Positions 11,240 to 58,417 of a stretch of DNA of 64,000 nt are shown piece after piece. Under the pieces are notes generated by a model that saw only the letters and a program-made list of their open reading frames with translations, searched no databases and had not been told where the DNA came from. Every line of letters begins with the position of its first letter. The stretch's first letter is position 1. Origin of the DNA: Macrocystis pyrifera (taxonomy: Eukaryota; Sar; Phaeophyceae; Laminariales; Laminariaceae); the NCBI GenBank assembly GCA_031763025.1, contig JASSKH010000028.1:8509359-8573358 (forward strand), written 5' to 3'. The translations under genes were made by a program, and so were the position numbers.

Positions 11240-14200
11240 GTGAGTGTCGAATCATGATATCTGGACATTTCAATATTTTCCATCTTTCTTTTTGTATAGT
11301 GTCTCTGTACAGAACACCTGATACCAAAGTACGAACTCTTTACCAGTACACTCTTTACGTACTATTTTTTATTAATACTCACACTATCACACTTGTGCTG
11401 CAATTGAGCGCCAGACTCCTTCCAATTTTGCAAGGAGAGGGAAAGACGCTTTTTTCAACACTCGAGCTGTTGCGTTGATGTATCTGCCGCTCGTCTGCCC
11501 CCCCCTATTGTGCCTTTCAACGGAAGCCACCAAGCATGTGCGGAGAAGGAGCTCCTGCGGCGCAAGACTTTTCCGTGCCCTATCTGCCAAATACAGGTGG
11601 GTGCGGCGCAATACGGCCTACTGCCTACTGTGTACGTACGCAAAGTAAGGCGTGAGGCGTACTGCCGCGTAGGTCTAAGGCAGGGCTGGGCACTGGCGAC
11701 TCGACCTATGTGCAGCTGCATCTTGCACAAAGAACTGTGCAGGTTGCGAGTCTTATTGGTCAAGGAGGGTATTTCGGCCGCCCAGCGTTTTTTGGGGAAA
11801 ACGCCACCAAAACACACGGCGGAGCCGCATGACTGCCCCTGCCGACCTCGAGCGAGCCCTCCAAAGGGTTGGAGTTCGGGTTGGGGTTATAGGGTCAGGC
11901 CTGGGGCCGGGTTGATCTGGGTCCACGCGCAAGGCTGAAATTGACGACATAGGCCCTGCACAAAGTTTTTTGCAGGTTGCAGCTGCACATGGCGCACGCC
12001 GGCACTGGCGGCTGTCCTCAACCGGTAGATATTATATACTGCCTGCGTCAGCAATCAGTATATACTAGATTGCATCAGTGTACTGGTCGTAGCACAGGCG
12101 CATAATAGAAGAGAGCTGTGAGTCGGCACGACTTCAGTCACCAACTACACATACCGTCCGTACAGCCGTCCCTGGTACTATTACGGGGGTCCATCGTTAA
12201 TAGGACCTATGGGATACATAAAAACCTATATATTTACCTATTTTTAGTAACAATATTTGGTCCTATTTACTATGGTCCCCCGTAGTAATAGAATTAATCG
12301 AGTAGTTATCTACTGGCAGTCTTTTCGTGGACGTGCTGACTATTCGGCTCACTGGAAGCCCATACTCGTAGGAAGGATTGCTGAATGCGGGATTGTTTTT
12401 TCTTTTTTTGGTGGGCCCCCCGGCTCACCTCCCGGGGACAGGCACCGGCTCAACTCCCGGAAGTAGGGACACCCTTTTTGTCAGTCGAAAGGTTTTGAGG
12501 CGTTTCGCTCGAATTTTTTTTCGCCTCAATGCCGCATCGAGCAACTTTTGCACAACAATATATAGACAGTGTGTGGTGTGGAGGCAAAAGACGACCGCAG
12601 GAACCTAACTGCTACTACTACCTGTTGTCCTTTCGAGTGGGTGCAGCTACGACGCCCTGCTACTGTACCGCAGCTTTTGGATCCACTACGTCAATGAGAT
12701 TATTACGAGCTTGTCGACCCAAATACCAACTAACTGCGCAGCTCGAACAACAGCAGAGACGGCGGTGCGTGATGGTGATGATGCAGGCAAACGGTGACGA
12801 CGGCAGGCACGTGCGTACTGCTCTCCTCTCGCCTGGCTGTGAGAATTGCGCCGCTGCAGCAGAGGAGAAGTACAGCAACAGTTTTTTTTTTTGGTGGCGG
12901 TTGTTGGGTGTTGTGATCGGTGTCGTCCCAGTCGGGATGTCATTCATGCTGTACGTGCACCCGCGCCCCCAGCCCTGCCTACTATTACGGGGGACCATGG
13001 TAAATAGGACCTACGGTACACACAAAAACCTGTATGTTTCCCTATTTTTACCTACAATATTTGGTCCTATTTACTTTGGTCCCCCGTAGTATTCATCCTC
13101 GGTGCTGCATCGTAGGCTCCGCTACATGTAACTAGCCGTAAAGTACACCCCGGATATGCCACACCACGCGCATGATTTTGCCTGCTGCTGCTGGGCGCCT
13201 GCTGCTGCTGGGCAACGACAGCAGAGGAGGAGTACTTTTGTCAGGTGGCGGTTGGTTACTGATCGTCGTGGTGGGCGTGGTCGGAAGTCGGGATTCATAC
13301 ATACATGTACATACGTGCGCCCGCACCCCAAGCTCTGCCTATCTATCCTCGATGATGCATCGTAGGCTCCGACACTTGCATCTACAGGCAAGAGCACGCC
13401 GCGGATGTGCCACCTCTCGCGCTGGTTTTGCCTGTTGCTGCTGCTGGGGCAACAGCAGAGAGGGGGAGTAAAGTTTTTCTGGTGGCGGGCGTTGCTGTTG
13501 GTCGTCGTGGTGGGTGTGGTCGGGAGTCTGGATACATACATGCGCCCGCACCCCAAGCTCTACCTATGCATCTTCCATGATGCATCGCAGGCTCCGATAG
13601 ATGCAACAAGCCATAACGTATACTGCGGATGTGCCACCTCACGCATGGTTTTGCCTGCTGCTGCTGCTGCACGGCACGGCTGCAGCGATGTGCAACAGCC
13701 TCCTTGTTGTAACGGCACTGTTGGCCAATCACGGCCATTTTGTTAAAAGTCGCAATGCAAGTCATAGCTCTGATTTGATTGGTGCAAGCTCGAACAGTCT
13801 AGTTTATTTTTACGTTGTTTTTTGCTTGTAGGTGATAACTTTGTCCCTATCGCTTGGCGTGGTGCCGGCCCCCCTTGACTTGGGGGGGGGGCGGGGGGGG
13901 GGGGGGGGGGCTGATTTGGCTCGCTTTTTCGCTCGCAAGTCTGCTGGCCATCAGCTGGCTTCGCCGGCTGACTTAACCGACTGTAGTCAGTTAGTTGGCT
14001 AGTGGCGCCTACCGACTTGTTTTTCGTCGTGAGATCCTGCCGTCTGACAGGTCTATAAAGCTCTCTGTTATTAGATACCAGGTCTTTGTACCAGGTATGC
14101 ACCACAATCACTTGAGCTATCAGTCAGCGCTGACTATATGATTCAAGTGATTTTATAAAATTTATTAAATACGTCAGCTGTGAGTTCGACTGGTTAAATA

Positions 14201-14900: not shown

Positions 14901-17900
14901 GAAAGAGCCCCTCACAAGAAAAGAAACTTGGTCCTGACAGTTCCTTGGAAATAAGAAAGTTATGTAGTGCGGAGCGGTTGTGCTGAAAATAGTGTTGAAA
15001 ACACCCTTCTCAGTATTTTCCGGTTTCCTTGCGAGGGGGCCTTTACTGTATCAACCATCCAGAATACCAGGTTTAGTACCATGGGTAAGTTCCTGTTATT
15101 ACGGGGGGGGGACCATAGTAAATAGGACCAAATATTGTCAGTAAAAATAGGTAAAAGATATAGGTTTATGTGCATACCATAGGTCCTATTAACTATGGAC
15201 CCCCGTAATAATAGCGTTGTTTTGGTTGCAAGTGATACGGGATGGTGTACCACAGCTCGTCACAACCGTTTCCCTTAAGGACTTTTATGATACTGCTGCC
15301 GTGCGCACCATTTCGTACTTGTTTGTTTTCTCCGCACACCCATCGAGATGCATTTTTTGCTACAGCCTGTTTTTTTTTCGTGACCGCAGGCAGGATCGCA
15401 GGGAAGTGAGAGCTGTTAGCGTGAGAACATCATCGTCATCAGTAGTGCAGGCGTCGGGCAGGTCACCCATCCCCACTATTACGGGGGGCCATAGTAAACA
15501 GGACCAAATATTGATAGGAAAAATAGGGAAGTATGTATTTATTTGTGTGTACCGTAGGTCCTACTTACTATGGTCCTCCGTAATAGACGATCTAGATCTC
15601 TTGGGGGCAGATACCGTAGATCCCCGATCTGTGCCTGATATACCGTAGGTGATGTTGCTGGGTGGAAGCCGAACTATCTGCGTGATCTATACGCGATAGA
15701 TGCAGCACGTGTGTTCCTAGGTTGGGATCTGTTCTTGAACAGACCCTGCGCAGCATCTCATAGCGGGTCGGGTCAAGAGGCCCCAGATGACTTCTTCTTC
15801 TGCAGTAGTACATAGGTCGTCACCTGTCTGTCTGTCCGTCCGCATCTGTCCGCAAGTTGTGTACCGTTGACAAGTGTGGGCACGCAACCATTGCACGTAC
15901 GAGTTATGTACGAGGGGTCGTGCGAGTCGCGCGCGTGTTGCACTTCGGGCACTGAAATAAACAACTCTATCACGGGGGACCATAGTAAATACCTGGTACG
16001 ACCAGATGTTGTTACTGCTGTAGTACAAATAGGTAAATATGTACCTGGTAGGTTTTTGTGTGTAACGTAGGTCCTATTTACTATGGTCCCCCCGCGATAT
16101 ACACCACCACTATAAGTGCGCCCAATACCAGGTGCCACACACTCTGTTGCTAAATTTAAGGAGCATTTGTATTGAATTTTTAGTACAGAAAAATTTCCTC
16201 GTGGTTTAAGGTACAGAATGGTACGAATATGATGTAGCCCCCCGGGGCTGTCCTTTGTGAGGGCGGACGATGCTGTGTGCCTGTCTTTTGTTTTTCACCT
16301 CATCGTTTTGTTTTCCCTCCGTGAAGAAGAAGCCCCAGAAGTTTTGTTGTTGTTGTTGTTCTTGTTCTTGTTCTCGTTCTCGTTCTCGTTCTTGTTCTGG
16401 TTCTTGTACTATAATACAGTAGTTTTTTGTTGTTGTCTGTCCATCCCATTCATTTATCTTTGCCGTTATTTTCTCTCTCCCTCATGTTGTAGTCGTAACT
16501 CAGATCCGGGGTCACACCTGATAGCAGGCAGGCTCCTCCTCCTTCTCCTCCCCTCTTCCCGCTACGGCTCGCGCCTTGCATTTTTCATCGCGATAAGACT
16601 TCGTTCAGCCGTTTCGCATCGAATTTCTCGTAACCCCAACCCCACTATTTTTTTAATTTTTTTTAACTTTTTACTACGAGCACTGCACTCACGTTTCGAT
16701 GGACTAATTATTTGAAATCACGAGCGGGATAACGCTTGTCGACTACCGAAAGGGTTAATTGACTATATATTTTCGTGGTTTATAGTTCAGAGATTGGCGA
16801 CGAGACGGACGCCGCATGGAAAAAAGAAGAAGCCTCGATGGGGGGCCTCTCTCGTCATCATTCGGTCATTTTTCGGAATTACAGGGATGCGTTCGGCGTA
16901 AAAGCGAGTACGTTTCGTTGACCAAGCGCGAGCGCGTGGTTCGGAAGCGTGCCCTCTCACGACTCGAGGCCGACGATCGGTCGGCTTTGCTGGCTGATGG
17001 CACAGCCTGCAGGCGATTTCTATGCTTCCACGGCAAAAGTCGTTCGTCGGCTGCCTGGCGCCGACCTTTTGGCTGCTGTTTTTCCCGTCCCTTTGTCTCT
17101 GCAAAAAGAAGGAGCGAATCCGGTAAAAGTTTCAATAGGTAGAACCAGAAGCGGCATAGTTGACATGGTTTGAAGACTTTCGACAGCTGGTGTCCACCAA
17201 GACAAAAAAAAAAAACACGAAAACCTTTCCGACAAAAAAAACAGTAACCACTCACCCCCCCCCCCCCCCCCCCTCCCTCCCTCCCTCCCTCCCTCCCACC
17301 CGCCTCCCATGCGTCGTCAACAACCCCCCCCCCCCCCCGGCGCCGCCGCCGCCTTATATTAACGCAACGAAACAAAAACAAAAACAACACGGAAAAACTA
17401 CTGGTAAAACACAAAACACAACTAAAACACGGGGAAAAAAAAAAATAAACGACAGCTTTAACCGTTCGGAGGAAGATTTCGAGGGGGACCTGCGGGCGTA
17501 CAACGACTACCTCGAGATCCGAGAAGACATCATCTACGGCCTGTGCAGCGGCGTCAAGGACGAGATCAGCCAGGCGCAAGCGAAAGTGCAGCAGTACGAG
17601 GATGGCCACAGGGACGAGATCACGAAAAATGCCGCCAAGAAGTGAGTTGGTGGTTTTGTAGTAGTTCTGTACCCCTGGAAGGGATTACAGAGAGGGGAGT
17701 GCGGGTAGGGGGCTGGCGGGGGGGGGGGACGGGGACGGAGGGGGTACGGGGACGACGGGGGGGGGTACTCATGCTGTGCATGGCCGTAGCCGTGTGACCA
17801 TAATATAGACCCTCGCATCCCTACAACGCGGGGACGGAGCAAGATCGAATTTTTTGCCAACCAGGCAGACACTGCTTGCACCAATCGCGAAGCGACACGT

Positions 17901-19015
17901 GAAGTGTTCGGCTGATAGCATGAGGGGGTGACCTGCATCCTCTACAAAGAACCGATTGTGAGGCAGGCGGGCTTTCCTGCATTTGGATGACAGTGTCGGA
18001 CGAACTGACTTGTTTTCTGGTGTGTCCAGTTTAGAGTAGCAATGAGTCTACTGGGGGTCGGGATGGGGCGTGGGACGGGGGGGGGGTCAGAGGGGGGTTA
18101 CATCCGGCGTCCCCGGTGGCTTGGTAGGGGGTCTGCGTGCCTATCAAGATCAATTTCGTGGGTTCGAGTCTCACCGAGTGATTGCTCGTAGGGACTTTTC
18201 CTTGCATAAATAAAATGATTAGCGGAAAGCGCGAGAGCGTGAGTTAGCTACATTCGATGAAAATCGACGAGCAGTGGGAATGCTGAACCCTCAGCGCGAC
18301 AAAAAAATAGAGGCACGTACCGGGGGGGAGAAGGGACGACACCTATGACCACGGCTTGTCCAGAAGATCGCTGAGGGTAAAACCTCCTGCGAGGTACAGT
18401 AGACTGGAGAGTAAAAGTGATGATTAAAAAAAAAAAAAAAAAAAACGACGGGGGGGGGAAGGGCACCTGGACGAAATTCTGAAAAACGAGGCGAAGACGT
18501 GAGTGAGTATGTTGTGTTCCGTTTTCGGGGAATGGGGGGTGGGAGGGTGGGAGGGTGGGGGTGGGGGGGGGACTGTCCCTTGTTTATGCTTCGTTATTAG
18601 CATGTATGTGAATGGGTGCCTCGGTGTGGCGATGGTCGCGGTCGCTTTCGTGGGTAAGTTTCGTCGGCTGTTAGCCACGTCCTGTGGCCCACTGCGGGTG
18701 TGCCATGCGAGTGTGCTGCAGGACGTAGAAGAATGGTAAAATTGCCGCCGCCACCGCCGCCGTCGTAGTCGTCATTATTGTCAACCAACATCGCCGCCGT
18801 CATCACCATCGCCATCATCTTTCATCTTCATCTTCATCTTCATCTTCCAGAACCGTCGCCATCCTCAGCATCACCACCATGATCGATATCATTATCTTTT
18901 GTCACCGGCCACCGGCATCTTCCTCGGCGTGAGCACCATCATGATCATCATGATCGTCATCATCATCATGATCGTCGTCATCATCGTGGTCGTCATCATC
19001 ATCATCATCATCATT

Positions 19016-19047
<32 letters not shown>

Positions 19048-21264
19048 TATCATCATCATCATCGTCATCATCATCATCTGTACAGTAATACCTTCGTCGT
19101 TCTAATTTACAATATCAAGATAGTTTCCTCAAGGCGGCCGGACTCTTCTTTTTTTTTTCTTTTTTTATTGCCTTGTGGACCAGTGGCGATAATATGTTTT
19201 TCGTGTTTTCGACACGATCCGATCCGTACCTCACCCAGGATGATGAACGCCTACAATTCCCCAATAAAACCCGTATGACACCCACAAAAACCGGAAGGCT
19301 ACGTGGAGCTATTTATCAAGAACGCCTACTTCTTTACCGTAACCCTCTCGAGACTCCAACAGGATGCCACACCACTACAGCACGTGATTTCCAAGCAGCT
19401 CGGCCCTCAAGAATGTGGTTGCGTTTCCTATGGGGCCCAATCTGCGCTTTCGTAATAATTTTGACAAATTTGTCCCGCGTCTGCTCCCGCCGTGGCTTCT
19501 GCTATGCATAACATTGCTCCCTCCCTCCCTCCCCCCCCCCTCGATCGCTCCCACGATATTAATCCCAACCGCCCGGACCGTTTCAGAGTGGACCAGGAAA
19601 ACCTCGTGGAGGAGCAGCTGGCCGCTCTACGACAACAGCAGGCGAGTTTTCGAAAACACGACAAAAAAAATACCTGGTGCAAGGAAAAAGCAAACAACTC
19701 AAAACTGTAAGGGCCCATCTTAACGGGGACTTTCGGCTCTTTCAATTTGACTTGATTTTTTTTTTTCTAATTTAATTTAAAGGGCCCATCTTATCTAGGA
19801 CTTCCAACTTGACTAGATTTTTTTTTTTTCTTCTAATTTAACTTACATCTGATTGAACGAAATTTAGTGTTCCCCGTTAAGATGGGCTCTAAAAAGAAGA
19901 GAAGAGCTGTGTGTGAGTCGGCACCGCCTGCTATATAACCCCGTATTAATAGGGGCTTCCAGTGAGTCGGGGGGAAAACGGTAAAAGATGGCGATTTCAG
20001 GAACGGTGACAAAACTGCGTGATTTTTTTGGCGGGTGATGAGAACAAACAGGCAAGACAAAAATGCGGCCCCGAGTCACAAATGGTTGGGGAGTCGTGTC
20101 GTGCGTGCACACGGCACGGACGCAACGTGACAACGTGACCCCTGCCCGTACTTCTCTGGAAGCTCAAAATTATCAACCATTGGTTCGGCCGTGATCTCGA
20201 GGTCCCCGCGGTCGTTATCTCGGACTGGACTCCCGCCATGGGCACGAAACACTTCTTGGGGGACTTGGAGTCTTATTAACCCCTTTTAGTACCGCAGTCC
20301 CGATTTGGGGACAAACCAGTCTAATTCCAAGTGATTTGTCCCCAAATCGGGACTGCGGTACTAAAAGGGTCAAGGGGGTACACGTACAGTTCGGTACTAT
20401 TACGGGGGACCATATATAGTAAATAGGACCAAATATTGTTAGTAAAAAAAGGTAAATGTGTAGGTTTTTTGGGTATACCACAGGTCCTGTTAGCTATGGT
20501 CCCCCGGAATGGAAGGATGAAGGTCACCAACTTTATGATGCCATGGTATTTTAGTTATCAGTCGGACTACGGTACGAATACGAAGGGTAATGATTTCGTG
20601 GAGGTACCGCCTATCCGATCCGACTTGCTTATTGAGTTTCCACACCTATAGGAAGGGTTGCTGAATGCGGGATTTATTTTGTTTCGTTTTTTGGGCGGGT
20701 TCCCCCTTGACTTGGGGGGGGGCATGGGGGGGAGGGCGGGGGGTACTCCTTATCATGCATGGCCGCAGTCGTGTGACCATAGACCCTCGCATCCCTACAA
20801 TGCCGGGACGGAGCACGGCGGGTTCTCATCGGCCCGGCAGGGGGCGCGGGGGGGGGGGGGTGTGTTTTGTGTACTCGTTATCTCATTCTGATGTGTCGCC
20901 GTAGTCGTATGACACCCTTGATTTGGGGGGGGGGGGGGCTGATTTGGCTCGCTTCTCTCGCCGGACCTGAGTCGGCAAGTCGACCGGTCATCAGCTGGCG
21001 TAACCCTTTGAGTAGTGCAGTCCCGTTGTGCGCAGACGAAGTATTTAGAGCTTGAGTGCTTTGTCCCGAAAACGGGACTGGACGGTACTTCTAAAAGGAA
21101 GGTAACGACTACGTAAGAACTCAGCTAGTTGGCCAGCGGCACGATTTCGTTATTAGTCCTGAAATCCTGCTGACTTGCAGCTGTCTCTCTACAAGACATG
21201 CAAACAAATCAGACAACCGAAACAGATAACGCTGACGCCGCCCGCCGCCGCGCGAGGCGACCCC

Positions 21265-21329
<65 letters not shown>

Positions 21330-24132
21330 TATTATATATATATTATACATGGGTTGGGTTGGCGTCGGTTGGCAACGACACTGTAAAACATGCCGCTCAC
21401 TACGTAAGCTAGATATCCAGGGTACCGTTTTTTTTTTTTTTTTTTTTTTTTTTTTGGCGGTCGCCCACAGCTGGTCGTCGAGTTAGATCATTTGTGCGAG
21501 GTAAATAACCTTTACTCTGCACAAGGAATTGATCGTATCACGTAGTGTTCAAGGTACGGCACCCAAGAGGCAGTTACATAGTACTCCCATTGCTGTCTCT
21601 GGAAGTGGCCACACCAGAAATTAAACTAACTCATTGAAGGTGTCATCCATATGCAAGTCCGCCTCACAAGCGGTTCTTAGTAGGATGCAGCTCACCCTTC
21701 ATGCGACTCGCCGGACACCTCACGGCGCTTCGCGCTTGGTGCAAGCAATGTCTGCCTGGTCGGTGAAAACCCGACATGCTCCGTCCCGGCATTGTAGGGA
21801 TGCGAGGGTCTATGGTCATACGACTACGGCCATGCGTGAGATCGAGTACATCTCTCCTATCGAGTACACCCCCCCCCCCCCTGCGTCTTCGGGGGGTTGT
21901 TCCACTTGCTGTGCGGTGCTTGTCGCTGTGTGGAAAGAAGGCCTTCTCTTTCTTTCTCGTCCGTAGAACTCGTATCTCGTGTGGCTTTCTTTTGTTTCTT
22001 CTCGCCCCTTCACCACCAACTTTTGCGCTCTGGTTACTCGCTGGTTTGGTGATGCTGGTATTAGGTTTATCTGCGCAAAAGCAGTTGACTCCCGAGGGCT
22101 TTCAATGGGGAGACGAAACAAAGTGCGCTTTACTCGCCCTACTTATCAGATATATACCTGGTATATGTAAATGTAAGTTATTAAAATATACCAGGTATAT
22201 ATACATACTGTCCGTATACCTGGTATATTTTAATAGCATATTATACTACAGCAGTAGGTACCCATAGACATGCCGGTCGGACATGGCAAGTTTTTGTTTT
22301 TCGTTTTTGTTTTTTGCGCTCGTGCTTAAAACAAAACTTTGTTTATTTTTTTTCGTTTTTGCTTTTTTGATATTTTTTTGTTGATTTTTTTGTATTTGTT
22401 GTTGCTTTGTTTTTTTTTTTTTTTTTTTTCGTTCTTGTCTTTTTTGTCTTTCTGCCCTTTGTTTTCGGCGGTGACGCAGGAAAGCCGCAAACATTACAAC
22501 CAGCTGGAGGAGGCGCGCAAGCAGCAGCACAAGCGGAAGCTCAAGCTCGAGGCCCAGGAGGTGGCTCTCGGGGAGCGAGATCACGTCACCGCCACCTTGG
22601 GAGACAACCTCTATGTCGGTGAGCGAGGCTTCGCTCGTATACACTGTACGGGTATGGTTTTTTGATGGCAGAGGTGGCGTTTTTCGGGGATGAGTTGGGG
22701 TTGGCGTGGGAGAGATGGTGTTTTTTTTCGGGGGGGGGGGGGGTAGGGGTTGGGGTTGGTGTTTGGGGGTTAGCGTTTTGGGGGGAGGGGCGGTGTTGGG
22801 GTTGGAGTTTGGGGCAAAGGCGTTTACGGGGGGGGAGGGGGGGGGGGAGTGTTGGCATATGCCTTAAGGAATGGCACCCGCCATCGGTCTCTGCTTTTGT
22901 TTTTTGTGGGACGGGAGGGAGCGACGTGCCTGACTGCTCGGGCTGTGCTGAACGGAGACGAGACGGGCTACGACCTGCCGCGGCACATCCAATCTCGTAT
23001 GCATCTGTGTACGCACGAAGCGCACCTCGTTCTGTGGAGGCTAGGTTGGCGTTTGTTCTTGGGAGCGGCGGCACCATTCCTTTTGCTCGTTTCGGTTCTA
23101 GGAGGGAGGTCCCTCTCTCCGCGCGTGGAGAGACTCCCCCGCGGGGTCGTGCGTGGCACGTATGTATTAGGTCTGTGTTAGGCCTGTCGGCTAAGTTTTG
23201 TACTTCGGTCGCGCGTGCGTGTACTGGCAGGGTCTGTGCGCGCTAAGTTTGCACTCCGATCGCGCGTGCGCGCCCTGTGAACCAACTCTTTTCGGGGCAA
23301 ATGCCGAGAGAAAGAAAAAAATGTCGATTTGCGGCATGATGGGAGCCACACACGAAGTAACGCGCAGTAGAGCTTACCACTTGTTCGAGATAAGAGCCTT
23401 GAAAAAGAAACGCGCACGCACACACACCTGTGCACGAAAACTAAGGGGCTAGCGCTATTCCCATTGGTTGATTGTGTCTGATCGATTTACTAGGGTTATT
23501 GGTACAGTAGGGGTAGCATTTTTACTATTACGGGGGACCATCGTAGTAAATAGGACCTACGGTACACACAAAAAACCTATATATTTCCTTATTTTTTCCA
23601 ACAATATTTGGTCCTATTTGCTGTGGTCCCCCGTAATAGGCGCAGAAAATATTTTTTCTGGTTGACGATATTCCCCCAACAGAGAAAGCAACTACCCAAT
23701 ATCGCTGGGATACCTCACTTCTTTTTTGTGTTTTATGATACCAAGGACATGGGATTGTCCATCAGGTTGCACATTCGGTTTTTCTCAAAATTAAGGGTTT
23801 GGGTTGGCTGAAGACCCCCCCCTCTCGAGTGAGGGGGGCCAGAAGGCGTTAGTTTCTAGTCGTCTCGTACACAGTGACCCTCAACCGTGTTCTCGAGTAG
23901 TGGTAAAAGCTGAAGGAGGGGAGGGGCGGGGGGGGGGGGTGTACCCGAAGTTATAAACAAATCCGTCTCACGCGCGCAGCACTTCCCCTACACGTGTTTG
24001 GGTGTATGTTTTGGTAGCCGCACTGTAATCAAGTCAACATGATGAATAGGTGCTGCCGCGGCCGCCCACGCAGCGCCGTTTCTCTCGTGTGTCGGAGCGA
24101 AGCATCGGTCGCCCCCCACGACAGAGCCCCCG

Positions 24133-24172: not shown

Positions 24173-25459
24173 CTAAAACGTCGCGACGCGGTCAACCCAA
24201 ACGAATTAACCCCGCCCCGCCCCCCTACATGTCGTTATGCAAGTCCGCCTCACAAGCGCTTCTTAGTAGGATGCAGCTTTCACCCTTTCATGCGACTCGC
24301 CCAACATCTCACTCACGTTTCGCTTCGCGCTTGGCGCAAACAAACGTCTGCCTGGTCGGTGGAAAACCCGACGTTGCTCCGTCCCGGCATTGTAGGGGTG
24401 CGAGGGTCTACGGTCACACGACTACTACGGCCATGCTGCATGATATCGAAAACGCCTCCCAACCACCTTGAACGACGCGACGCAGATAACCTCGAAGGAC
24501 TCGACGACGAGGGGAACCCGAGGGAGAACGGAAGCACGCTCGCTGCCGTACCGTCGGGCATGAGGCAGATGCTCAATATCCCCGCACCGGTACCGCAGCC
24601 GAAGAGCAACCAGGTAGAACGTGATATGATCGCACGACGCTGGAACGGGAAAGCGAGCGCGCGCGCGGACGGCATAGTTTTTTTTTTTTTTTCTTCTTGT
24701 GCTCCTTCTGCCGACCCCCCGTGTGTGTGTGTGTGTGTTTTTTTTTTCTTGTCTTGTGTGAGCAAACCCCGTTTTTGGGTCTCGGAGTGGGGGTTCCACC
24801 GAACGGTTGGGAAGCCTCTATATATATATATACCTGTCAGCCTGCGCGCTTGCCTTTCCTGCACCCACCCCACCCCATCCAGCCACTCACTCACCCATAC
24901 ACCCACCAACCCCCCCGCCCACCCACCCACCCGCCCGCCCGCCCACGCACCCGTTCTGATTTTGTGATCACCTGCAACATATCGGACCACTGTTGATATA
25001 TCACTTTTCATGTTGATGAGCATTGTTCAGTAGCATTACGAAGGGTATATAGGTGCGTCTCGTGGTTCCGTTGTTCCTCCGGACGCGCGCCTTAAAAAGC
25101 GGCGGCATGTGTGCAAATCTGACGCCCGTTTGTCATTATAACAAATCGGACGCTGGACCGCTATAGCATACCAGGTACCTAGTGTGGTAGACGTGTTGTG
25201 TGTCAAAATGCGCGATTGTTGCCCGTGACTTGTGTTGCAACGGGGCGCGCCTCCCCCCCCCCCCCCCCCCCCCGTCTGCCCCCCCCCCCTCCGTCCGCCC
25301 AGACGTGCTCCGTCCCGGCATTGTAGGGATGCGAGGGTCTATGGTCTTGCGACTACGGCCATGCATGATAATGAGTACCCCCCCCCCCCCCCATCCTCCT
25401 CCTTCCCCCCCCTTCCCTCTTCCTCTCCCCCCTTCCCCCCCCTTCTCCTCCTCCTACCT

Positions 25460-25508
<49 letters not shown>

Positions 25509-26151
25509 ATGCATGATATCGAGTGCACCACCCCCCCCCCCCCCCCCCCCCGCTATCCAATTCTCCCTTCTCACACCCGCCCTTGCCTCATCAACTCCAC
25601 ACACCCCACTCCCACACCCTATATCACCATACATATACATGCACAAATATGTATACACCTCTATATACCCCCCCCTACCCCCCCCCCGCTTTCTGGAAGT
25701 GGGCATACCAGAAAAAAATCAATTTGTTGCCGCGGCCATCCATAAAAAAAAAAAACGCCTCTAAAGCGGTCCTTAGTAGGATGCAGCTCACCCTTCATGC
25801 GACTCGCCCAACACCTCACTCACGTTTCGCTCGGCGCTTGGCGCAAGCAATGTCTGCCTGGTCGGTGAAAACCCGACGTGCTCCGTCCCGGCATTGTAGA
25901 GATGCGAGGGTCTACGGTCATACGACTACGGCCATGCATTATCATGAGTACACGCCCGCCCCCCCCCCCCCCCCCCCCCGAACCCATCCCCGCTGTACCT
26001 GTGTACTTTTTAGGACACGAGGAGACGATTCGCGTCCATGTCGGTGACGGAGCGACGGCCTCGCATGCAGAAAGCCGCCGCCGCGCCGGATCGGGCCCTC
26101 GGCGGAAAGCGAAACTGGGAAGAGATGCTGGGGAGCTTGTTTTTCCGATGA
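11136..26151 (+). CDS. MNAT1: MAT1, CDK-activating kinase assembly factor / TFIIH subunit, eight exons, complete
   Basis: MAT1 (Tfb3 in yeast) joins CDK7 to cyclin H, stabilises the CDK-activating kinase and tethers it to TFIIH, acting in the nucleus in transcription, repair and the cell cycle. Exons: 11136-11239, 11527-11596, 14544-14629, 17456-17641, 19587-19641, 22480-22618, 24486-24613, 26014-26151. Phases match at all seven junctions and give 301 residues, against about 309 in human. Order: N-terminal RING (C7, C10, C31, H33, H36, C39, C52, C55); the TVRKRITKIFN and SEEDF..LRAYNDYLE segments typical of MAT1; a long coiled coil (about 110-210); a Pro-containing linker; and a C-terminus LGGKRNWEEMLGSLFFR that matches the family's GG...F.GLF end. 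ATG 11136 is chosen because MDDELVCALC starts as other MAT1 proteins do, although the frame is open upstream. Intron 5 uses a GC donor. Introns are full of MITEs, SINEs and microsatellites. Confidence 0.93.
11527..11596 (+). CDS. MNAT1: MAT1 exon 2 (RING, second half)
   Basis: The acceptor is CGGAAG|. The first base completes Phe35, then HQACAEKELL and FPCPICQIQ supply H36, C39, C52 and C55. The donor is CAG|GTGGGT, phase 0. Confidence 0.93.
12179..12290. mobile_element. MITE-1 copy
   Basis: Both inverted ends intact, in MAT1 intron 2. Confidence 0.85.
12830..13745 (+). repeat. Four tandem units of about 215-250 bp
   Basis: Each unit has a (CTG)n tract, GCAGAGGAG, GGTGGCGGTTG, GTCGTGGTGGG and GATGCATCGTAGGCTCCG in order. 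The units are diverged, and the first holds a MITE-1. Lies in MAT1 intron 2. Confidence 0.8.
12983..13091. mobile_element. MITE-1 copy inside a tandem repeat unit
   Basis: Interrupts the first of about four repeat units (12830-13745). The other units show the uninterrupted sequence CTGCCTATCTATCC, which defines the empty site and supports TA target duplication. Confidence 0.88.
13855..14060 (+). repeat. Repeat C copy with internal poly(G)
   Basis: CCCTTGACTTGGGG then a long G run, CTGATTTGGCTCGC, and later CATCAGCTGGC and GAGATCCTGC. The same order is found at 20893-21180. Confidence 0.65.
14386..14470. mobile_element. MITE-2 copy
   Basis: Both arms clear: CACTGCAGTCCCGTTTTG and CAAAATGGGACTGCAGTG. 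It lies about 75 bp before MAT1 exon 3. Confidence 0.8.
14544..14629 (+). CDS. MNAT1: MAT1 exon 3
   Basis: The acceptor is TTTCCAG|. Encodes VRRAGLTEKTLDELEVARD and then TVRKRITK, the conserved segment after the RING. It ends AT|GTGGGT in phase 2. Confidence 0.92.
14862..14897 (+). repeat. Poly(C) tract, 36 nt
   Basis: Uninterrupted C run in MAT1 intron 3. Runs this long are hard to assemble, so the exact length is uncertain. Confidence 0.9.
15097..15210. mobile_element. MITE-1 copy
   Basis: Both ends present, with a slightly expanded G run in the left end. Confidence 0.85.
15477..15584. mobile_element. MITE-1 copy
   Basis: Both inverted ends present, in MAT1 intron 3, about 270 bp from the previous copy. 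Confidence 0.85.
15968..16098. mobile_element. MITE-1 copy (enlarged centre)
   Basis: Inverted ends intact. The centre is longer than in sister copies and includes two short CCTGGTA-type blocks. Confidence 0.8.
17456..17641 (+). CDS. MNAT1: MAT1 exon 4
   Basis: Encodes FNRSEEDFEGDLRAYNDYLE, then the start of the coiled coil (VQQYEDGHRDEITKNAAK). This is the most diagnostic MAT1 block. The acceptor GACAG| follows an A-rich rather than pyrimidine-rich stretch. The donor is AA|GTGAGT, phase 2. Confidence 0.93.
17757..18046 (+). repeat. G-tract repeat A, partial
   Basis: G9 then TACTCATG, GCATGGCCGTAGCCGTGTGA and the following blocks to GTGTGTCCAG; diverged. It ends in G-rich sequence, next to SINE-1. 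Confidence 0.75.
18104..18445 (+). mobile_element. SINE-1, tRNA-derived, full length with poly(A) tail
   Basis: The head has RNA polymerase III-type boxes: a box A-like GGTGGCTTGGTAGG near 18115 and box B GGTTCGAGTC at 18161-18170. A unique body follows, ending GAGAGTAAAAGTGATG and about 20 A. It is the reference copy for three others (56134-56455, 35650-35790, 8-115). It is non-autonomous; the partner LINE is not visible here. Confidence 0.8.
18455..18497 (+). pseudogene. Partial duplicate of the 3' end of MAT1 exon 4
   Basis: Inside MAT1 intron 4 this stretch reads GHLDEILKNEAKT followed by a perfect GTGAGT donor. It resembles the end of exon 4 (GHRDEITKNAAKK then GTGAGT) in both DNA and protein. 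No acceptor gives the right phase for inclusion after exon 4, so a relic of a local duplication is likelier than an alternative exon. It lies directly behind the poly(A) tail of a SINE. Confidence 0.45.
18770..19085 (+). repeat. CAT/ATC microsatellite
   Basis: Over 300 bp of imperfect ATC repeats in MAT1 intron 4; Met- or Ile-rich frames here are artefacts. Confidence 0.9.
19587..19641 (+). CDS. MNAT1: MAT1 exon 5 (55 nt, followed by a GC donor)
   Basis: The acceptor is GTTTCAG|. Encodes VDQENLVEEQLAALRQQQ of the coiled coil. Frame to exon 6 is kept only with the donor CAG|GCGAGT, a good GC-AG type site; the next GT, four bases on, gives the wrong phase. Confidence 0.88.
19711..19890. mobile_element. 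180 bp TIR element (Harbinger-like MITE) with TAA duplication
   Basis: Ends GGGCCCATCTTAACGGGGAC and GTTCCCCGTTAAGATGGGCTC are inverted repeats, flanked by TAA on both sides (19708-19710, 19891-19893). A second copy of the left end lies inside at about 19781. Same ends as the 1.9 kb element at 45831. Confidence 0.8.
20280..20372. mobile_element. MITE-2, best copy
   Basis: Near-perfect palindrome from AACCCCTTTTAGTACCGCAG to TGCGGTACTAAAAGGG with GGGGACAAACCAGTC in the arm. Confidence 0.85.
20398..20510. mobile_element. MITE-1 copy
   Basis: Both ends present, in MAT1 intron 5, next to a MITE-2 copy. Confidence 0.85.
20745..20845 (+). repeat. G-tract repeat A, left end only
   Basis: GGGGGGTACTCC, GCATGGCCGCAGTCGTGTGA and AATGCCGGGACGGAGCACG, then a new G tract. 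Confidence 0.75.
20893..21180 (+). repeat. Repeat C copy interrupted by MITE-2
   Basis: CACCCTTGATTTGGGG, G run, CTGATTTGGCTCGC, CATCAGCTGGCGTAA, then MITE-2 (20999-21100), then the repeat resumes to GAAATCCTGCTGACTTG. Confidence 0.65.
20999..21100. mobile_element. MITE-2 copy inserted in repeat C
   Basis: Starts GTAACCCTTTGAGTAGTGCAG and ends TACTTCTAAAAGG. It interrupts the repeat shared with 13855-14060. Confidence 0.75.
21266..21329 (+). repeat. Poly(C) tract, 64 nt
   Basis: Directly abuts the right end of a full-length repeat A copy (21330-21868). Confidence 0.9.
21330..21868 (-). mobile_element. G-tract repeat A, full length, about 538 bp
   Basis: Lies between poly(C) runs on both sides (21266-21329 and from 21869). 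In minus orientation it reads G-run, GTACTCG, GGCCGTAGTCGTATGACC, CAATGCCGGGACGGAGCATG, GCGAAGCGCCGTGAGGTGTC, GTGTGGCCACTTCCAGAGAC, a homopolymer, then CCAACCCAACCCATGTATA and the second G-run. No coding capacity or terminal inverted repeats seen. Collinear over its length with 56907-57440. Confidence 0.8.
22480..22618 (+). CDS. MNAT1: MAT1 exon 6
   Basis: The acceptor GACGCAG| follows a long T-rich tract. Encodes ESRKHYNQLEEARKQQHKRK and the end of the coiled coil. It ends in phase 1 at G|GTGAGC. Confidence 0.9.
23526..23637. mobile_element. MITE-1 copy
   Basis: Both inverted ends present, in MAT1 intron 6. Confidence 0.85.
24133..24171 (+). repeat. Poly(C) tract, 39 nt
   Basis: C run in MAT1 intron 6, about 65 bp before a repeat A copy. 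Confidence 0.9.
24235..24470 (-). repeat. G-tract repeat A, partial, just before MAT1 exon 7
   Basis: Reverse orientation, from TGCAAGTCCGCCTCACAAG to GGCCATGCTGCATGATATCG. It ends about 16 bp before the exon 7 acceptor; an A-type left border is missing. Confidence 0.75.
24486..24613 (+). CDS. MNAT1: MAT1 exon 7
   Basis: The acceptor is GACGCAG|. Two bases complete Asp214, then NLEGLDDEGNPRENG and MRQMLNIPAPVPQPKSNQ follow, a Pro-containing linker as in animal MAT1. The donor is CAG|GTAGAA. The 3' splice region starts only about 16 bases after a G-tract family A repeat. Confidence 0.88.
25305..25378 (-). repeat. G-tract repeat A, left end
   Basis: GTGCTCCGTCCCGGCATTG to GCATGATAATGAGTAC then a C run, the standard border seen in reverse. 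Confidence 0.75.
25461..25550. repeat. Poly(C) with a 24 bp repeat A remnant inside
   Basis: 47 C, then GATGCATGATATCGAGTGCA and CCA, then another C run. The remnant is just the terminal piece of repeat A. Confidence 0.7.
25760..25952 (-). repeat. G-tract repeat A, left half
   Basis: AAGCGGTCCTTAGTAGGATG to TGCATTATCATGAGTACACG followed by a C tract, 60 bp before MAT1 exon 8. Confidence 0.75.
26014..26151 (+). CDS. MNAT1: MAT1 exon 8 (C-terminus and stop)
   Basis: The acceptor is TTTTTAG|, phase 0. The exon ends LGGKRNWEEMLGSLFFR then TGA. The GG and terminal hydrophobic GSLFF pattern correspond to the conserved MAT1 C-terminus that contacts CDK7-cyclin H. Confidence 0.9.
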   Translation, partial: DTRRRFASMSVTERRPRMQKAAAAPDRALGGKRNWEEMLGSLFFR

Positions 26152-26239
26152 TGATAATGATGATGATGATGATATTGATAATGATAAGGGTGGACCGCAG
26201 AAAGAATGCAAAGAACCCCCTGCCGAAAATCCATCCCAA

Positions 26240-26480
26240 AGTTGAAGGTTTCTCTAGTTAAGACTAGGAGCGGTGCTCCCCCGTCTCGAAGGGGATGCGT
26301 GGCCAATGGTCGGATGACTAAGGCAAGCAACAGGGGAGAATCCCCCCCCCCCCCCCCCCCCCCCGCCCAATTGTTGGAGATGTATCTATTGGGAGTAGGA
26401 ACGGAGCTCCTCCGTCTCGAAAGGGATGCGTGGTCAATGGTCGATGACTCATGCAAGCGACAAGTGAGTACACTCCCCCC
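26240..26480 (+). repeat. Two tandem G-tract repeat B copies
   Basis: Units at about 26247-26342 and 26383-26468, each with TCTCGAAGGGGATGCGTGGC-like and GATGACTAAGGCAAGC-like blocks, ending in poly(C). The second ends GTGAGTACAC then C runs. Confidence 0.7.
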
Positions 26481-38120: not shown

Positions 38121-39639
38121 AGTGGCGTCTTTGGCTTAGGACTTTCGGCTTTTTTGTCGGTTTGCGTTGTTTGTCACTGTTTTTTTTGTTTGCTTTCCTA
38201 TTGTTGAGTAAGTTTGTTCCGGCCACTGCATGATGGAGACTCAAGAGGTGGAAGGGTCTGCTTCCCCTCAGGGTGGCCGAGCCGCTGAGGCCCAGGGCCC
38301 CTCAGTGCCCCACCGCCCAAGAGCCGTCGATGTGGATCGAGCGCCTTGTACAACAGACCAACAAGTGGAGCACGAGTCTAGGCAGGAGCCCCATCAGAAC
38401 GACGTGGATCGAGCGCCTTGTACAACAAACCATGAGGAGAAAGAGCTCCGGAGCCCCCTGACGGGGCCCGAGTAGCCTCCGCTAGACGGACCTCATCCAA
38501 GACCCCTTCTGTGCCCAATCGTCGCTGCAGCGGGGGCTTCTGAAGAGCCCTGGTCGCCCCCGGAGGGTACGACAAAAACCGAAGCGAAAGCGGCGTTGGC
38601 GGGGGGTGAAAAATCCCCCAAGCCAGGACGGCGGTCGACGGTGGCGACGGAGGCAGATACACGAGCGACGAATCTCCCCGAAGGAGCAGAGAGGTCGTCA
38701 ATCCTCATACGTGGCCCGTGTGTGCGAAAATCGCGAAAATCCGAAGAGGCGAGAGATAACCCACCCAAGACGGCACTTTCACTGCGGGACACCAGCCCAC
38801 CCAAACCGACACCAGGGGTCGGCGAAGAGCGAGTGCGAAGCCCGCAGGCTCGGATGAGGAAGATACCACCGTCCTCGACGGGGTTGAGGCAGCTAGACCC
38901 ACGGCGGTCGTGTTCTGTGGCGGGCTCTGGCAAGCGGGGGAGAAAATCAGCATTTCCGTTGGCGCTGCCCTTGCGGTACTCGAGGGTGTAGTCGAACGCG
39001 GCGAGGAACTCGAGCCACCGCTGGATTCGCGCGTTGTGGTCCCCTACTTTGGCGATACTCTCAAGTGCTTTGTGATCCGAAAATATTCGAAACTTCGTGC
39101 CCCACAGGTAACCTCGGAGTCGTTTGATAGCCCAGACAATGCTGCCAGCTTCCAGGTCCAACGGTGTCCAGTGCCTTTCGGAATCAAGGGTTGCGCGGCT
39201 GATATAAGCAATGGGCCGTACCGAGCCGTCCGGTTGTTCTTGTTCGAGCGCGGCACCGAAACCGTCGATGCAGGCGTCGCAGTACACGTGGAAGGGGCGG
39301 GAGCCGTCGGCTACGGCATCCCAGTCAGGGAAGACCAAAATCGGTGGGGCAGCGAGCTCGGCGAGGATCTGGCGGACGATAACTTCCATAGCCGGCGTGA
39401 AGACATACTTGACCCCCTTTCGGAGAAGGGCGGTGAGAGGACGTATCCGTTTAGACAGGTCGGGCAGGAATTTGCGATAATATACTACGCCGCCCATCAG
39501 AGCGCGGACCTGCTTGAGGTTCTTGGGCATGGGCATTTTCAGCAAGGCCGAAACTTTGTCCGCATTAGGGCTTATACCCGCGGGCGAAATAGAGTGGCCC
39601 AGAAAATTGGCGTCCGTGGCGCCGAGGCGTCGCCCAGCG

Positions 39640-40320
39640 TGCTCCTCCCCCGACGAGCACTTTACAGGTCGAAGATTCCGTCGTGAGCACTGCTCCGGCA
39701 ACGTCTTCCCTCTCAGGCCAGGGCTCTGCAAAAGCCCCCGCTGCAGCGACGATTGTCGCCCAGCGCGCTCCTCCCCCCACGAGCACTTTACAGGTCGAAG
39801 ATTCCGTCGTGAGCACTGCTCCGGCCGCGTCTTCCCTCCCAGGCCAGGGCTCTGCCAAAGCCCCCGCTGCAGCGACGATTATCGCCCAGCGCGCTCCTCC
39901 CCCCACGAGCACTTTACAGGTCGAAGATTCCGTCGTGAGCACTGCTCCGGCCGCGTCTTCCCTCTCAGGCCAGGGCTCTGCCAAAGCCCCCGCTGCAGCG
40001 ATGATTGTCGCCCAGCGCGCTCCTCCCCCGACGAGCATTTTACCGGTTGAAGATTCCGTCGTGAGCACTGCTCCGGCCGCGTCTTCCCTCTCAGGCCAGG
40101 GCTCTGCAGAAGCCCCCGCTGCAGCGACGATTGTCGCCCAGCGCGCTCCTCCCCCGACGAGCACTTTACAGGTCGAAGATTCCGTCGTGAGCACTGCTCC
40201 GGCCGCGTCTTCCCTTTCATGCCAGGGCTCTGCAGAAGCCCCCGCTGCAGCGACGATTGTCGCCCAGCATGCTCCTCCACCGACGAGCACTTTACCGGTT
40301 GAAGATTCCGTCGTGATCAC
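39640..40320 (+). repeat. 126 bp tandem repeat, about 5.5 units, in the Gypsy element
   Basis: Each unit encodes 42 residues on the plus strand (for example STAPAASSLSGQGSAKAPAA). Units are nearly identical, so the array is young or homogenised. Confidence 0.9.
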
Positions 40321-43300
40321 TGATCCGGCCGCGTCTACCCCATCGCCGCCTGGCAACCCGGCGCCTCCGAACGTTTTGCAGTCTTCAGGCCGCATCTCAT
40401 CGCGGACGCGCCGACAAACAGCTGCCGCCGCTGGCGCCGTGCCGCCTCCGGCGGGACCCCTAGACCATCAGCCCGGCGTGCTACCACCCCGCTGCGAGCC
40501 CCACGGCCGCGACCGCCCACACCCGTCGTTTTGGCCCCGACTGCTGCCGCCTCGCCCGTCCCGACGGTACCCATCTCGTCCGGCCGCGACCGCACCGAGC
40601 CCGTGGGAACTCCTCTTTTACGACTTCCGCCGCCAACTGACGCACCCCCCCCACCTCGACCGCCTTGGACGCCCTCGGCGCAGCTGCCGAGTTTCAGTTC
40701 GGTGATTCCGCAGCGCGCTATTCGCACGCCGACTGGGCTCGGGAACAACAGGCTGAGCCCGCGTGCAATGCCGCCATGCGCTACATAGCCCTTGGCCGAC
40801 CGGAAGTTCTGTCAGACGACTTTTTATCAGGTTTCCCTTCCCACCAGCACCCTCCCTTTTCGGAAGTTCAAGAGCTGGCCACCAAAGGCCGCTTGCACAC
40901 CACTGACGCGGGCATCGTTCTACTTGTCCGACAGCCGTCTCCCCCCCCTGCGTTGGATACGCCACGCCCGGTGGGCCGTACGGCCTGCTTATTGAACGAC
41001 GAGCCTATTCGCATTTATGTTCCGCTGCTCATGCGCCCCTGGGTCATGCAGGCTTGCCATTCTACGGTTTCCTGCCACCTAGGAACCGCGCGCACTCTAC
41101 GTACGCTCGAACGTTTCTACTGGTGGATCGGCATGAGCATCTGCACCCGGTGGTGGCTACGCAACTGCTTAAAGTGCCAGGCACGGAAAACGTCGCGGCA
41201 GACGGTCCGGTGGCCCTCCATCACGTTGCCCTTGCCAGAAGGGCCCGGCGTCGCCGTCAGCATCGACTATTTCGGCCCCTTCCCGGTGACGCTTCGAGGT
41301 AATACCTACATCTTGATTTTCACTGATCGTTTCAGCCGCCGAGCTGACATGTACGCCGTCACAGCGGCCGAGTTCACCGCTGAGGGCACGGCTAACATTC
41401 TCATCAACCGGTATATCCCTCTTTGGGGGTGCCCGCGCAGCATCCTCTCGGACAACGGCCTCCAGTTCTGCTCCAAGCTTTCGCACGCCGTATATCAGCT
41501 TCTCGGGGTTCGAAAAATTGCCACCAGCTCCTACCACCCAAACGGCAACGGGGGGGTGGAACGTGTAAACCACACGATGGCCCAGATGTTGGCAATGGTC
41601 GTCAACGAGCTCCAAAACAACTGGGATGAACAGCTCCCTCACGTCGAATTTGCGTACAACAATTCCGTCAGTGTCACCACGGGTCTGGCTCCCAACGAGG
41701 TACATATGGGTCGGCTCCCACGCCTCCCACTCACGATTTTCGAACGTGCTGGAGTCGCCGGCCACCAGAGCTTGGCCCGCGACCACCTCGCCTACTGCGA
41801 CTTGGCGACGGACCGCCAGCAGCGCGCGTACGACATCGTTCGAGAACACCACGCCCTCACTGTCGCTCGTGTGAACCGCCGCAACTCCGCCCTCTCCGAC
41901 GCTCTGCGTCCGGTCCCCAAATTTTACGTTGGTGGTTGGGTATGGGTGTACAATACGGCGGCCACCATCCGCCAGGGCGCGAACCCAGACACGGACGCCA
42001 AGGTCCTCAAGGCCAAACTCTCACTCAACTGGACGGGCCCCTACAAAGTTCTCGCAGTTGGCCCCTGCTCCTCAGCGGACACCCCGGATGGATCTCCTCT
42101 CGGAGCAAAGCTCCTGTATTTGGATCTTCCTTCCGATATGCCCGGCGCCGAGGCTCGCCGGCGCGTATCTGTTCAACGCTGCAAGCCCTGTGCCAACCCC
42201 CACGACCGTGGCGACATGCCGAAGTATTTGCCGGCGGGGTTGACGCAATACGTGCTCAACAATTTCTCCAAGAAATCCCCTCCGTGCCACGTCACCGAGG
42301 ACGACGTTTCGACCCCTCTTGAACGACTCGAAGTGGAAAAGATTACTGGACATCAATCGGTTAGAGGTCGAGGTGGCGTCATCGCGGTGATGTACGAGAC
42401 GCACTGGAAGGGACTTTCCCGGCCATCCTGGGAACGGGAAATGGACCTTCAGCTTTCTGGCAACGCAATTTTGCGCTACTGGGCCGGCACCCCGAACCAA
42501 CACCGCCAAACCAACCGCCTGTATCGCCGAATGAGAATTGGCGCGGCACAACGGGAGCTTTCTCGGAGTAACGGCGAGAGGTTTCTGGCACCCGGCTATG
42601 GTTGCGTGTCGCACGCCGATTGGCTCCGCCGATACAGCAACACTGTACTTCCCAACGGGGCCCACTTTTGGTACAAGGGCGACGACGGTCTGTGGTGGCT
42701 CGGGAAAATCAGCGCTACTACACTGACGGATGGAGTCTATCTGGTTCGATTTTTGGACGACCCGGGACCAATCAAGCTTTCTCTTTCTCCGGCGCGCTAC
42801 ACGACTTCGACGAGAGCTGTACGAGGTTCCTGGTGTCTGCAAATTCACTTGTCTAGCGCGTTTACATGGGGGGTCCAGCGTAACGTAGATGAATCTCGAG
42901 GTGCCGCCGTGGATAGCTGATTTTCGCTTCTTGACTGCACTCGTTATTTAGTTATTTTTTGTCGTCTTCCTGGGCCTTGGGGGGTGAATTTTTGTCTGCC
43001 CGATATGTTTCTGGCGTGTTTTTTTTTTTTTTTTTTGGACTGGGTTAGGCATGTGTTTTTGCGTATTCTGTCCTGCCTACCCCCCCCCGCTCAGTGTAGC
43101 GTCTGGTCTGGGCACTCGGCCGCTCAATTGCGGCCCAGGACGCGCTTTCAGAGTTGTGGACTGGGTTTCGGTGGTTCTTGTCGTCTTCCGTGTTATTTTT
43201 CTTTTCGTTCCCGTACGCACTTTTCGCTTTTCCGTGCATCTTCCTCGCCCCCCCCCGTGCGGGCGGTATGGCGATGGCTTTCATCGACGATTTCTTCCTG

Positions 43301-47755: not shown

Positions 47756-48467
47756 TAAGAGTCGAACACGTCGTACGAAATATCATCTGTAACGACCTCT
47801 TATATCGATCATTGGAACGTACTGATGTAAGTTCGAAAATAATGCATGCGGACTGACGGACAGACAGACACATTTGCCATTACCGAAACAGAGACTCAGT
47901 TTTACAAACTGAAAACTACTTGGAATTAATGTGGGACACTTTCATTCAGAGTGTATACAAGGGATTTTGTTTTCAACCTAATATTGAATTTATTAGTGTG
48001 GGACACTTTCTTGCAGTAGTGAAAGGGTTAAGGGCGCACGCCTGCTCCACCTGCTGCCCGAATCACGATCACCCCGCGCGCTGTAAAGAAGCCGAACCGA
48101 TTTGAGGAGGAGGGTGATTTTTCCGGGAAAAAATGTCGTTTAGTCCTGGAAGGTGTCTTTCGCTGGGCTTGCCGATGTCGACGAACTCCTTCCGAAGGTA
48201 AATTTGCTACATGTATAATATTCGCATCACAACCATGTGTTTTTCAGCGAGAGCTCACGCGGGAAGAATTAGGAATTCCACAAAGAAAAGAACGAAGCAG
48301 TCCACAGATAAGAAATAAACAGTCCCCGGATATAAAAGAAGCGGTCCACGGATGACAAAGAAGCCTTCCCCGGATAAGAAACCCTTCCATGATGTTAATT
48401 TTAATATCTTATCAATTTTGCCCCCACCAATATTTTAATATGTTATCTTTTCGAGGGGGAGGGGGGT

Positions 48468-48570
48468 ACTCATGGCATGCACGGGCCGTAGTCGTATGAC
48501 CATAGTCCCTCGCATCCCTACAATGCCGGGACGAACGAAGCACGTCGGGTTTTCACCGGCCAGCCGGGGG
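48468..48570 (+). repeat. G-tract repeat A, left end
   Basis: GGGGGGTACTCATGGCATG, CCGTAGTCGTATGACC, AATGCCGGGACGAACGAAG, then a G tract. Confidence 0.7.

Positions 48571-58340: not shown

Positions 58341-58417
<77 letters not shown>

Follow-up and report, generated by a model that had tools for sequence, protein, structure and literature searches.

A LINE and a non-autonomous derivative associated with poly(G)/poly(C) tracts in the genome of the kelp Macrocystis pyrifera

Introduction

Known long interspersed nuclear elements (LINEs) following a homopolymer logic mostly possess poly(A) tails and use T-runs as primers. The present study deals with a poly(C)-ended LINE and a short related element, referred to as repeat A, for which insertion into poly(G)/poly(C) tracts is proposed. 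Both were analyzed in a stretch of 64,000 nucleotides (hereafter the window) from the brown alga Macrocystis pyrifera (NCBI GenBank assembly GCA_031763025.1, contig JASSKH010000028.1, positions 8,509,359 to 8,573,358 of the forward strand) and in the whole assembly of 537,376,219 bases in 223 contigs, to which all genome-wide counts refer.

Among the described systems, LINE-1 (L1) together with its non-autonomous partners resembles the kelp elements in the combination of an apurinic/apyrimidinic (AP)-type endonuclease and a reverse transcriptase, in 5' truncation and in target-site duplications (TSDs). Moreover, the homopolymeric 3' tail of L1 matches a homopolymer-like nick site, since its poly(A) tail meets a T-run primer. 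The kelp LINE differs from L1 in that it would pair a poly(C) tail with a G-run primer and carries GTAC(G) directly after its stop codon. Zepp of Chlorella resembles the kelp elements in that new copies are nested within the tails of older ones and arrays are formed; however, Zepp is poly(A)-tailed and clustered near telomeres, whereas the kelp elements are poly(C)-ended and dispersed. Elements lacking long terminal repeats (non-LTR elements) that target microsatellites are represented by Togen, which inserts into (TG)n and belongs to the NeSL relatives, and by some HERO families, which are placed among the elements with a restriction-like endonuclease (PMC4640811). Insertion into an abundant simple repeat is common to Togen, HERO and the kelp LINE, whereas the kelp target is a mononucleotide G/C tract and the kelp endonuclease is of the AP type.

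Non-LTR elements targeting simple repeats are therefore already known, and G-tract targeting in combination with a poly(C) end is unusual for LINEs. Among the openly accessible titles listed in the literature searches, no poly(C)-tailed, G-tract-inserting LINE was named. This agrees with the initial annotation of the window, which knew of no family with this exact signature; the elements themselves nevertheless represent a LINE and its non-autonomous derivative. In the kelp genome paper, repeats were annotated by means of RepeatModeler, and the terms 'retrotransposon' and 'SINE' (short interspersed nuclear element) occur 0 times in its main text (PMC10498591). A LINE of the poly(C)/G-tract kind would allow the endonuclease and tail-primer pairing to be tested against each other as determinants of target choice. 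Furthermore, some of the long G/C tracts of the kelp would thereby receive a concrete explanation, and the nick rule could be derived from thousands of young copies (4,166 exact 20-nt ends).

Results and Discussion

G-tracts at the borders of repeat A and LINE copies

Based on the results presented below, repeat A is, with high probability, a passenger of an AP-endonuclease-type LINE, both elements being poly(C)-ended and using target-primed reverse transcription to enter poly(G)/poly(C) tracts. The association with G-tracts was evident throughout the assembly. The border GGGGGGGGTGTACTC (G8-TGTACTC) was found at 9,024 sites as an exact match, compared with 10 matches of the reversed pattern and six of CCCCCCCCTGTACTC (C8-TGTACTC), which represents the opposite polarity. 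Comparison of copies collected genome-wide confirmed the G-run borders proposed initially: GGGGG stands flush before the 20-nt constant end TGTACTCGATAGGAGAGATG in 3,321 of its 4,166 exact occurrences (79.7%).

Full-length copies of repeat A were selected as the best query matches, with flanks being ignored in the choice. The resulting set comprised 43 copies after exclusion of one further copy whose end could not be located. All 43 featured at least five G at the fixed end, and 41 also did so on the other side, at most 75 nt from the anchor. In addition, 29 copies of repeat A and 11 of the LINE whose ends were both visible, 40 in all, were curated by hand from the window and from 20 blind 10-kb regions, each beginning at base 1,000,001 of a contig. 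An edge-cut copy (L021), a chimeric fragment (L014 9871-9938) and two contigs from metagenome-assembled genomes (MAGs) were excluded from this count. Runs of at least five G were observed within 20 nt of the constant end in 33 and of the variable end in 30 of the 40 copies, the baseline at random positions being 2.7-4.5%, and C-runs of at least five were found at neither end of any copy. Within the blind regions, such G-runs accompanied the TACTC end in nine and the other end in six of ten copies of repeat A; the corresponding values for the window were 16 and 17 of 19 copies.

Strand sense and features of the LINE

A second family with the border G(n)-(C)GTACTC was identified, and this border corresponds to the 3' terminus of a LINE whose open reading frame (ORF) lies on the opposite strand. 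The border contains the stop codon of the ORF (...AACAAA TGA GTACG), and a C-run starts immediately behind it. Because of this position of the stop codon, the constant border represents the 3' end with a poly(C) tail; the sense strand corresponds to the C-strand reading, and the ragged border reflects 5' truncation. The polarity assumed by the initial annotation, in which the sense strand would begin with the G-run, was rejected and has to be reversed, since the ORF of the LINE runs in the opposite direction and ends at the same border: the supposed left border is the 3' end on the complementary strand.

The likely autonomous partner of repeat A is a LINE of 5.5-6.1 kb encoding an AP-type endonuclease and a reverse transcriptase. 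A query from the C-terminal part of the LINE yielded 17,643 first-look candidates, and all 150 scored matches, including the query itself, showed 91-100% identity. At the 19 LINE 3' ends retrieved for the best-ranking hits, C10 to C91 followed within a few bases of the stop codon, and all copies ended at the same place. Among five further 3' ends inspected by eye, four carried at least 10 C and one featured C7 followed by a broken run. The fixed 3' end was accompanied by variable extents and open-frame lengths of the copies, as is characteristic of 5' truncation.

Regarding coding capacity, a frame of 634 amino acids in copy L092 contains a reverse transcriptase (RVT_1, E=1.2e-30). In another copy, L112, RVT_1 (PF00078, E=1.4e-29) and Exo_endo_phos (PF03372, E=8e-11) occur in one frame, the latter reaching 42.5 bits compared with a cut-off of 24.5 in this one copy. 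PF14529 scored 24.2 bits, which is under its cut-off of 27.4. The frame of L112 is broken ahead of the last approximately 250 residues. The solved structures nearest to the LINE are R2 and LINE-1 ORF2p, both through the reverse transcriptase part.

The 5' end of the LINE is likewise defined, since all 40 scored matches to L113:225-640 start at query bases 1-17. By eye, a C-run of at least five was present within about 20 bases upstream of the LINE start in each of ten fetched 5' flanks. At seven loci seen at both ends, the distance from the LINE start to the ORF end is 5.5-6.1 kb; no repeated terminus indicative of long terminal repeats was visible by eye at these loci, no systematic search having been made. 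A TSD of the LINE itself was recognized by eye in L092 only. The 5' region of the LINE (L113 440-1100) consists of an imperfect array of repeats of approximately 130 nt with T-runs, and matches to the LINE 5' end were accompanied by offset secondary matches of this repeat kind in many copies.

Target-site duplications and the age of the G-tract

TSDs were evaluated on the exact borders of the 43 full-length copies of repeat A, applying a score threshold of at least 3.4 and mismatched pairs as the null. Nine copies exhibited a duplication of the form X-G(n), compared with 0.95 expected (permutation p=5e-5, i.e., 1 in 20,001, the floor). In this form, the bases preceding the 3'-side G-run reappear before the G-run just past the 5' side. 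Examples are cgtggcgacac followed by G6 and G8, cgggtgaga followed by G5 on both sides, ataagc followed by G11 and G12, and ggatggaa followed by G15 and G19. Since the bases before the run recur on both sides, the G-tract in these nine copies is read as part of the duplicated target and as having existed prior to insertion. The mean run length in the nine copies was 9.6 on the element side and 11.0 on the far side. Under another scoring scheme, TSDs in three of 32 copies reached a score of at least 6, the null rate being 0.23%. The TSD of L031 was recognized by eye; its run is interrupted, and it received a low score in the test on 43 copies.

Within the window, a filled and an unfilled tract with the same short flanks were found. 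The filled tract (20701-20965, minus strand) contains the repeat A copies 20744-20841 and 20870-20914, with CCCTTGAYTT-G(n) on both sides as a TSD, followed by CTGATTTGGCTCGC. The unfilled site (13864-13930, no strand assigned), which was spotted by eye, reads CCCCCTTGACTT-G10-C-G18-CTGATTTGGCTCGCTT and contains no element. Common to both is CCCCCTTGACTT-G(n)-CTGATTTGGCTCGCTT, with 12 nt on the left and 16 nt on the right. Together with the G-runs located inside TSDs, this site argues for the first of two possibilities considered initially, namely that the element inserts into G-tracts. A scan of the fetched loci for both flanks without the element yielded no interpretable site.

Furthermore, G-rich filler of approximately 9-22 nt was noticed by eye between the 5' end of repeat A and the TSD in L031, L032, L044 and L049. 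Candidate sources of this filler are end addition by the reverse transcriptase and copying from a C-rich strand.

Classification of repeat A

Repeat A aligns with the LINE at both termini, its head with the 5' end at 86% over 43 nt (E=1e-9) and its tail with the 3' end at 74% over 54 nt (E=0.001). In two of three copies, the tail alignment scored above all 500 shuffles (40 and 43 compared with maxima of 25 and 24). Neither a tRNA gene nor an Rfam family at gathering score was found in repeat A, although a degenerate head could escape both searches. A classical SINE with a head derived from tRNA, 7SL or 5S RNA was considered and rejected, given that the head matches the LINE 5' end. Because of this match and in the absence of a known-RNA head, repeat A (approximately 530 bp) is filed, on the strength of its sequence, as a LINE-derived non-autonomous non-LTR retroelement and not as a classical SINE. 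LINE-derived SINEs and LINE derivatives with internal deletions are similar in being non-coding and in keeping the LINE head and 3' end. Repeat A differs from them in its middle part, for which no match beyond short words was obtained to the LINE pieces searched. As in SINEs mobilized by a LINE, its 3' end is common to a LINE of the same genome; mobilization in trans by the LINE enzyme is proposed.

The sense strand of repeat A contains an internal T-run. Since such a run would stop RNA polymerase III, transcription by polymerase II appears more likely. In the two full-length copies of the window, the internal A/T stretch consists of a pure T28 at 21428-21455 and of (AAAAAAC)n, on the other strand, at 57311-57355.

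A different, tRNA-like repeat (GCGTCCCCGGTGGCTTGGTAGG...GGGTTCGAGTCTCACCGAG), in which stretches resembling an A and a B box were recognized by eye, is located at 18101-18260 and 56297-56454 of the window. Further copies with 79-92% identity occur in several blind regions, and by eye the repeat directly follows the 5' end of two fetched repeat A copies (C215:3021024 and C193:6396284).

Occurrence of repeat A on metagenomic contigs

Repeat A was also found on two MAG contigs. On L002, G11 is flush at TGTACTC; on L001, G11 is present at the truncated end only. Both L001 2210-3261 and L002 comprise kelp-like repeat DNA within contigs filed under bacterial MAGs (Saprospiraceae, Robiginitomaculum), and L001 looks chimeric by eye, being bacterial-like up to about 2.2 kb. 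The sequence flanking the L002 copy reaches at most 69% identity to the kelp genome. Because no kelp match exceeds this value, the L002 stretch probably originates from another brown alga; no empty site was obtained from it. Exact stretches of repeat A were absent from the viral contigs scanned.

Proposed insertion mechanism and alternative explanations

According to the proposed mechanism, a nick made by the LINE endonuclease in the G strand would fall at the 3' end of a G-tract or close to it. The G-run thereby released would then pair through its 3' end with the C-run terminating the LINE or repeat A RNA, repeat A making use of the LINE enzyme, and would prime cDNA synthesis. The cDNA would correspond to the strand described by the initial annotation, G(n)-TGTACTC..., and frequent early stops would cause 5' truncation. 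A cut of the second strand further upstream would duplicate the tract together with a few preceding bases, which would leave a tract of the same polarity at both ends and two targets in place of one. Copies could consequently nest, because each insertion leaves two tracts. As an extension put forward tentatively, and considered possible rather than probable, the tract may serve as landing site, primer and DNA-encoded poly(C) tail at once, so that targets multiply with the element, nested arrays arise and the element acts as a driver of the long kelp G/C tracts.

Several observations weigh against insertion of the elements into pre-existing G-tracts in the manner outlined. Runs of at least five G were missing at the fixed end of seven of the 40 curated copies, flush GGGGG was absent at 845 of the 4,166 exact fixed ends, i.e., about a fifth, and a G-run is likewise missing from the fixed end of the copy on contig L001. 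No TSD above the threshold was detected in 34 of the 43 full-length copies; for these, insertion wholly within the tract, rendering the duplication invisible, is assumed. A differently scored TSD test on 20 copies (five dropped) revealed no excess (p=0.39). The unfilled site at 13864-13930 matched only itself in BLAST searches with longer flanks; it is not an orthologue of the filled tract, and by its short flanks it is a candidate paralogue. Moreover, the tail of a third, diverged repeat A copy scored 21 against the LINE 3' end, under the shuffle maximum of 27.

Among the alternatives, the least improbable one assumes that the C-run is element-borne, a long encoded or added C tail of the RNA making the 3'-side tract and the target contributing a short G stretch only. 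The C10 to C91 found at all 19 LINE 3' ends from the top of the hit list fit this idea, as do TSD targets holding just 5-8 G. It is nevertheless regarded as unlikely: far-side (5') G-runs are present in 41 of the 43 full-length copies, for which a 3' tail alone is insufficient and a target tract or a second process is needed. Even less credence is given to the generation of G/C runs by mobilization itself, in which the reverse transcriptase adds C/G or slips at the ends and a target tract is unnecessary. The G-rich filler seen by eye in several copies fits this scenario, and runs touching copies are longer when the window and the blind regions are pooled (median 15 vs. 13, p=0.004). On the other hand, the tract lies inside the duplicated target in the nine TSD-positive copies, where element-side runs extend down to G5 and are not longer than far-side runs, and tracts of at least 10 away from both families are common (44 of 53 in the blind regions). 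An origin of the runs chiefly by terminal G addition was rejected on the basis of the TSDs and of the element-side and far-side run lengths. The initial suggestion that G is added during mobilization is not supported as regards systematic addition at the 3' junction (9.6 vs. 11.0), whereas addition or copying at the 5' end may account for the filler.

Spread chiefly by recombination or template jumping between G-tracts, producing head-to-tail arrays instead of separate insertions, appears very improbable. A neighbouring repeat A or LINE copy was present at 20 of the 43 full-length copies in a rough motif test, two adjacent copies in L039 (95% and 96%) are similar in age, and at L014 9799-9938 the sequence of a repeat A copy passes into that of the LINE family with no G-run, resembling the product of a template switch or of recombination. 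Neighbours in other loci, however, are unlike in divergence (96% vs. 81% in L036, 97% vs. 82% and 79% in L040, 96% vs. 82% in L047), and copies outside arrays bear their own TSDs. Finally, long homopolymers are generally hard to assemble, and exact run lengths are accordingly uncertain; an assembly or sequencing artefact as the cause of the pattern is nonetheless a practically negligible explanation, given the strict polarity across 9,024 sites and the G11 next to the same element on MAG contigs from elsewhere (fixed end in L002, variable end in L001).

Contribution of the elements to G/C runs

G/C runs of at least 10 were located within 25 nt of a copy end in 22 of 43 cases in the window and in nine of 53 cases in the blind regions. 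The elements thus account for about half of the runs in the window, and most tracts elsewhere stand apart from both families. The initial idea that the element explains the many G/C runs of the window therefore applies to these 22 runs and not to the rest. When run lengths at copies were compared with those of other runs, the difference was not significant for the window alone (p=0.11) and reached p=0.014 for the blind regions alone.

A short repeat resembling miniature inverted-repeat transposable elements and starting with GGGGGACCATAGTAAATAGGACC was observed at positions 6389, 12259, 15106, 16070 and 20483 of the window, with copies in other loci. The G-run at its own start may supply targets.

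Copies of repeat A and the LINE within the window

In total, 19 copies of repeat A and three fragments of the related LINE were delimited by hand in the window. The initial annotation had counted about 14 copies; the G-bearing TACTC border described for them holds for 16 of the 19. Both full-length copies had been located exactly, and G-runs of the same polarity are indeed present at both of their ends. The first (21330-21868, plus strand, 539 bp), a non-autonomous LINE derivative with LINE-like head and tail, terminates in ...GAGTACA; it is preceded at its 5' end by a C64 tract (21266-21329, plus strand) and directly followed at its 3' end by C13 (21869-21881, plus strand), representing the target tract or poly(C) tail. 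The second (56907-57440, minus strand) is 94.4% identical to the first, has the same polarity and lies between G15 (56892-56906) and G20 (57441-57460). Next to it, a very short 5'-truncated copy (56865-56890, minus strand) is bounded by G10 on one side and, on the other, by the G15 in which the full-length copy lies.

Further copies on the minus strand comprise the 5'-truncated copies 17766-18052, whose 3' end lies in a G9 tract, and 48467-48563, which features G-runs at both ends. Copy 50237-50386 follows G24 and has its truncated end near G16; copy 50411-50541 follows G16, and its truncated end has no G-run of at least five. The 3' tail of copy 58199-58305 was aligned with the LINE 3' end, and the short copy 58319-58341 is enclosed by G9 and G75.

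On the plus strand, diverged fragments of repeat A were found at 2424-2464, between G/C runs, and at 2502-2566, with no G-run of at least five at the fixed end. The latter also applies to the diverged copy 24236-24440. Copy 25299-25377 is accompanied by G/C runs of 15 and 11, the very short copy 25508-25530 is located between runs of 21 and 47, and a 5'-truncated copy occupies 25688-25950. The diverged copy 60667-60834 shows no G-run at the fixed end and C-runs at the truncated end; its diverged tandem neighbour 60838-60960 has a run at the fixed end only.

All three LINE 3' fragments are located on the plus strand. Fragment 2135-2407 encodes the C-terminus of the ORF (71% amino acid identity over 89 amino acids) and is followed by C13 at 2408-2420. 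Fragment 26236-26341 is followed by C23 at 26342-26364, and fragment 26364-26470 has its 5' end in this C23 tract.

Besides these copies, the window contains retrotransposon remains at 38493-42920, which we take to be Ty3/gypsy-like. Their RNase H part is located on the minus strand (38493-39878) and the integrase on the plus strand (40641-42920), and a 126-bp tandem repeat occurs within the remains at 39629-40340.

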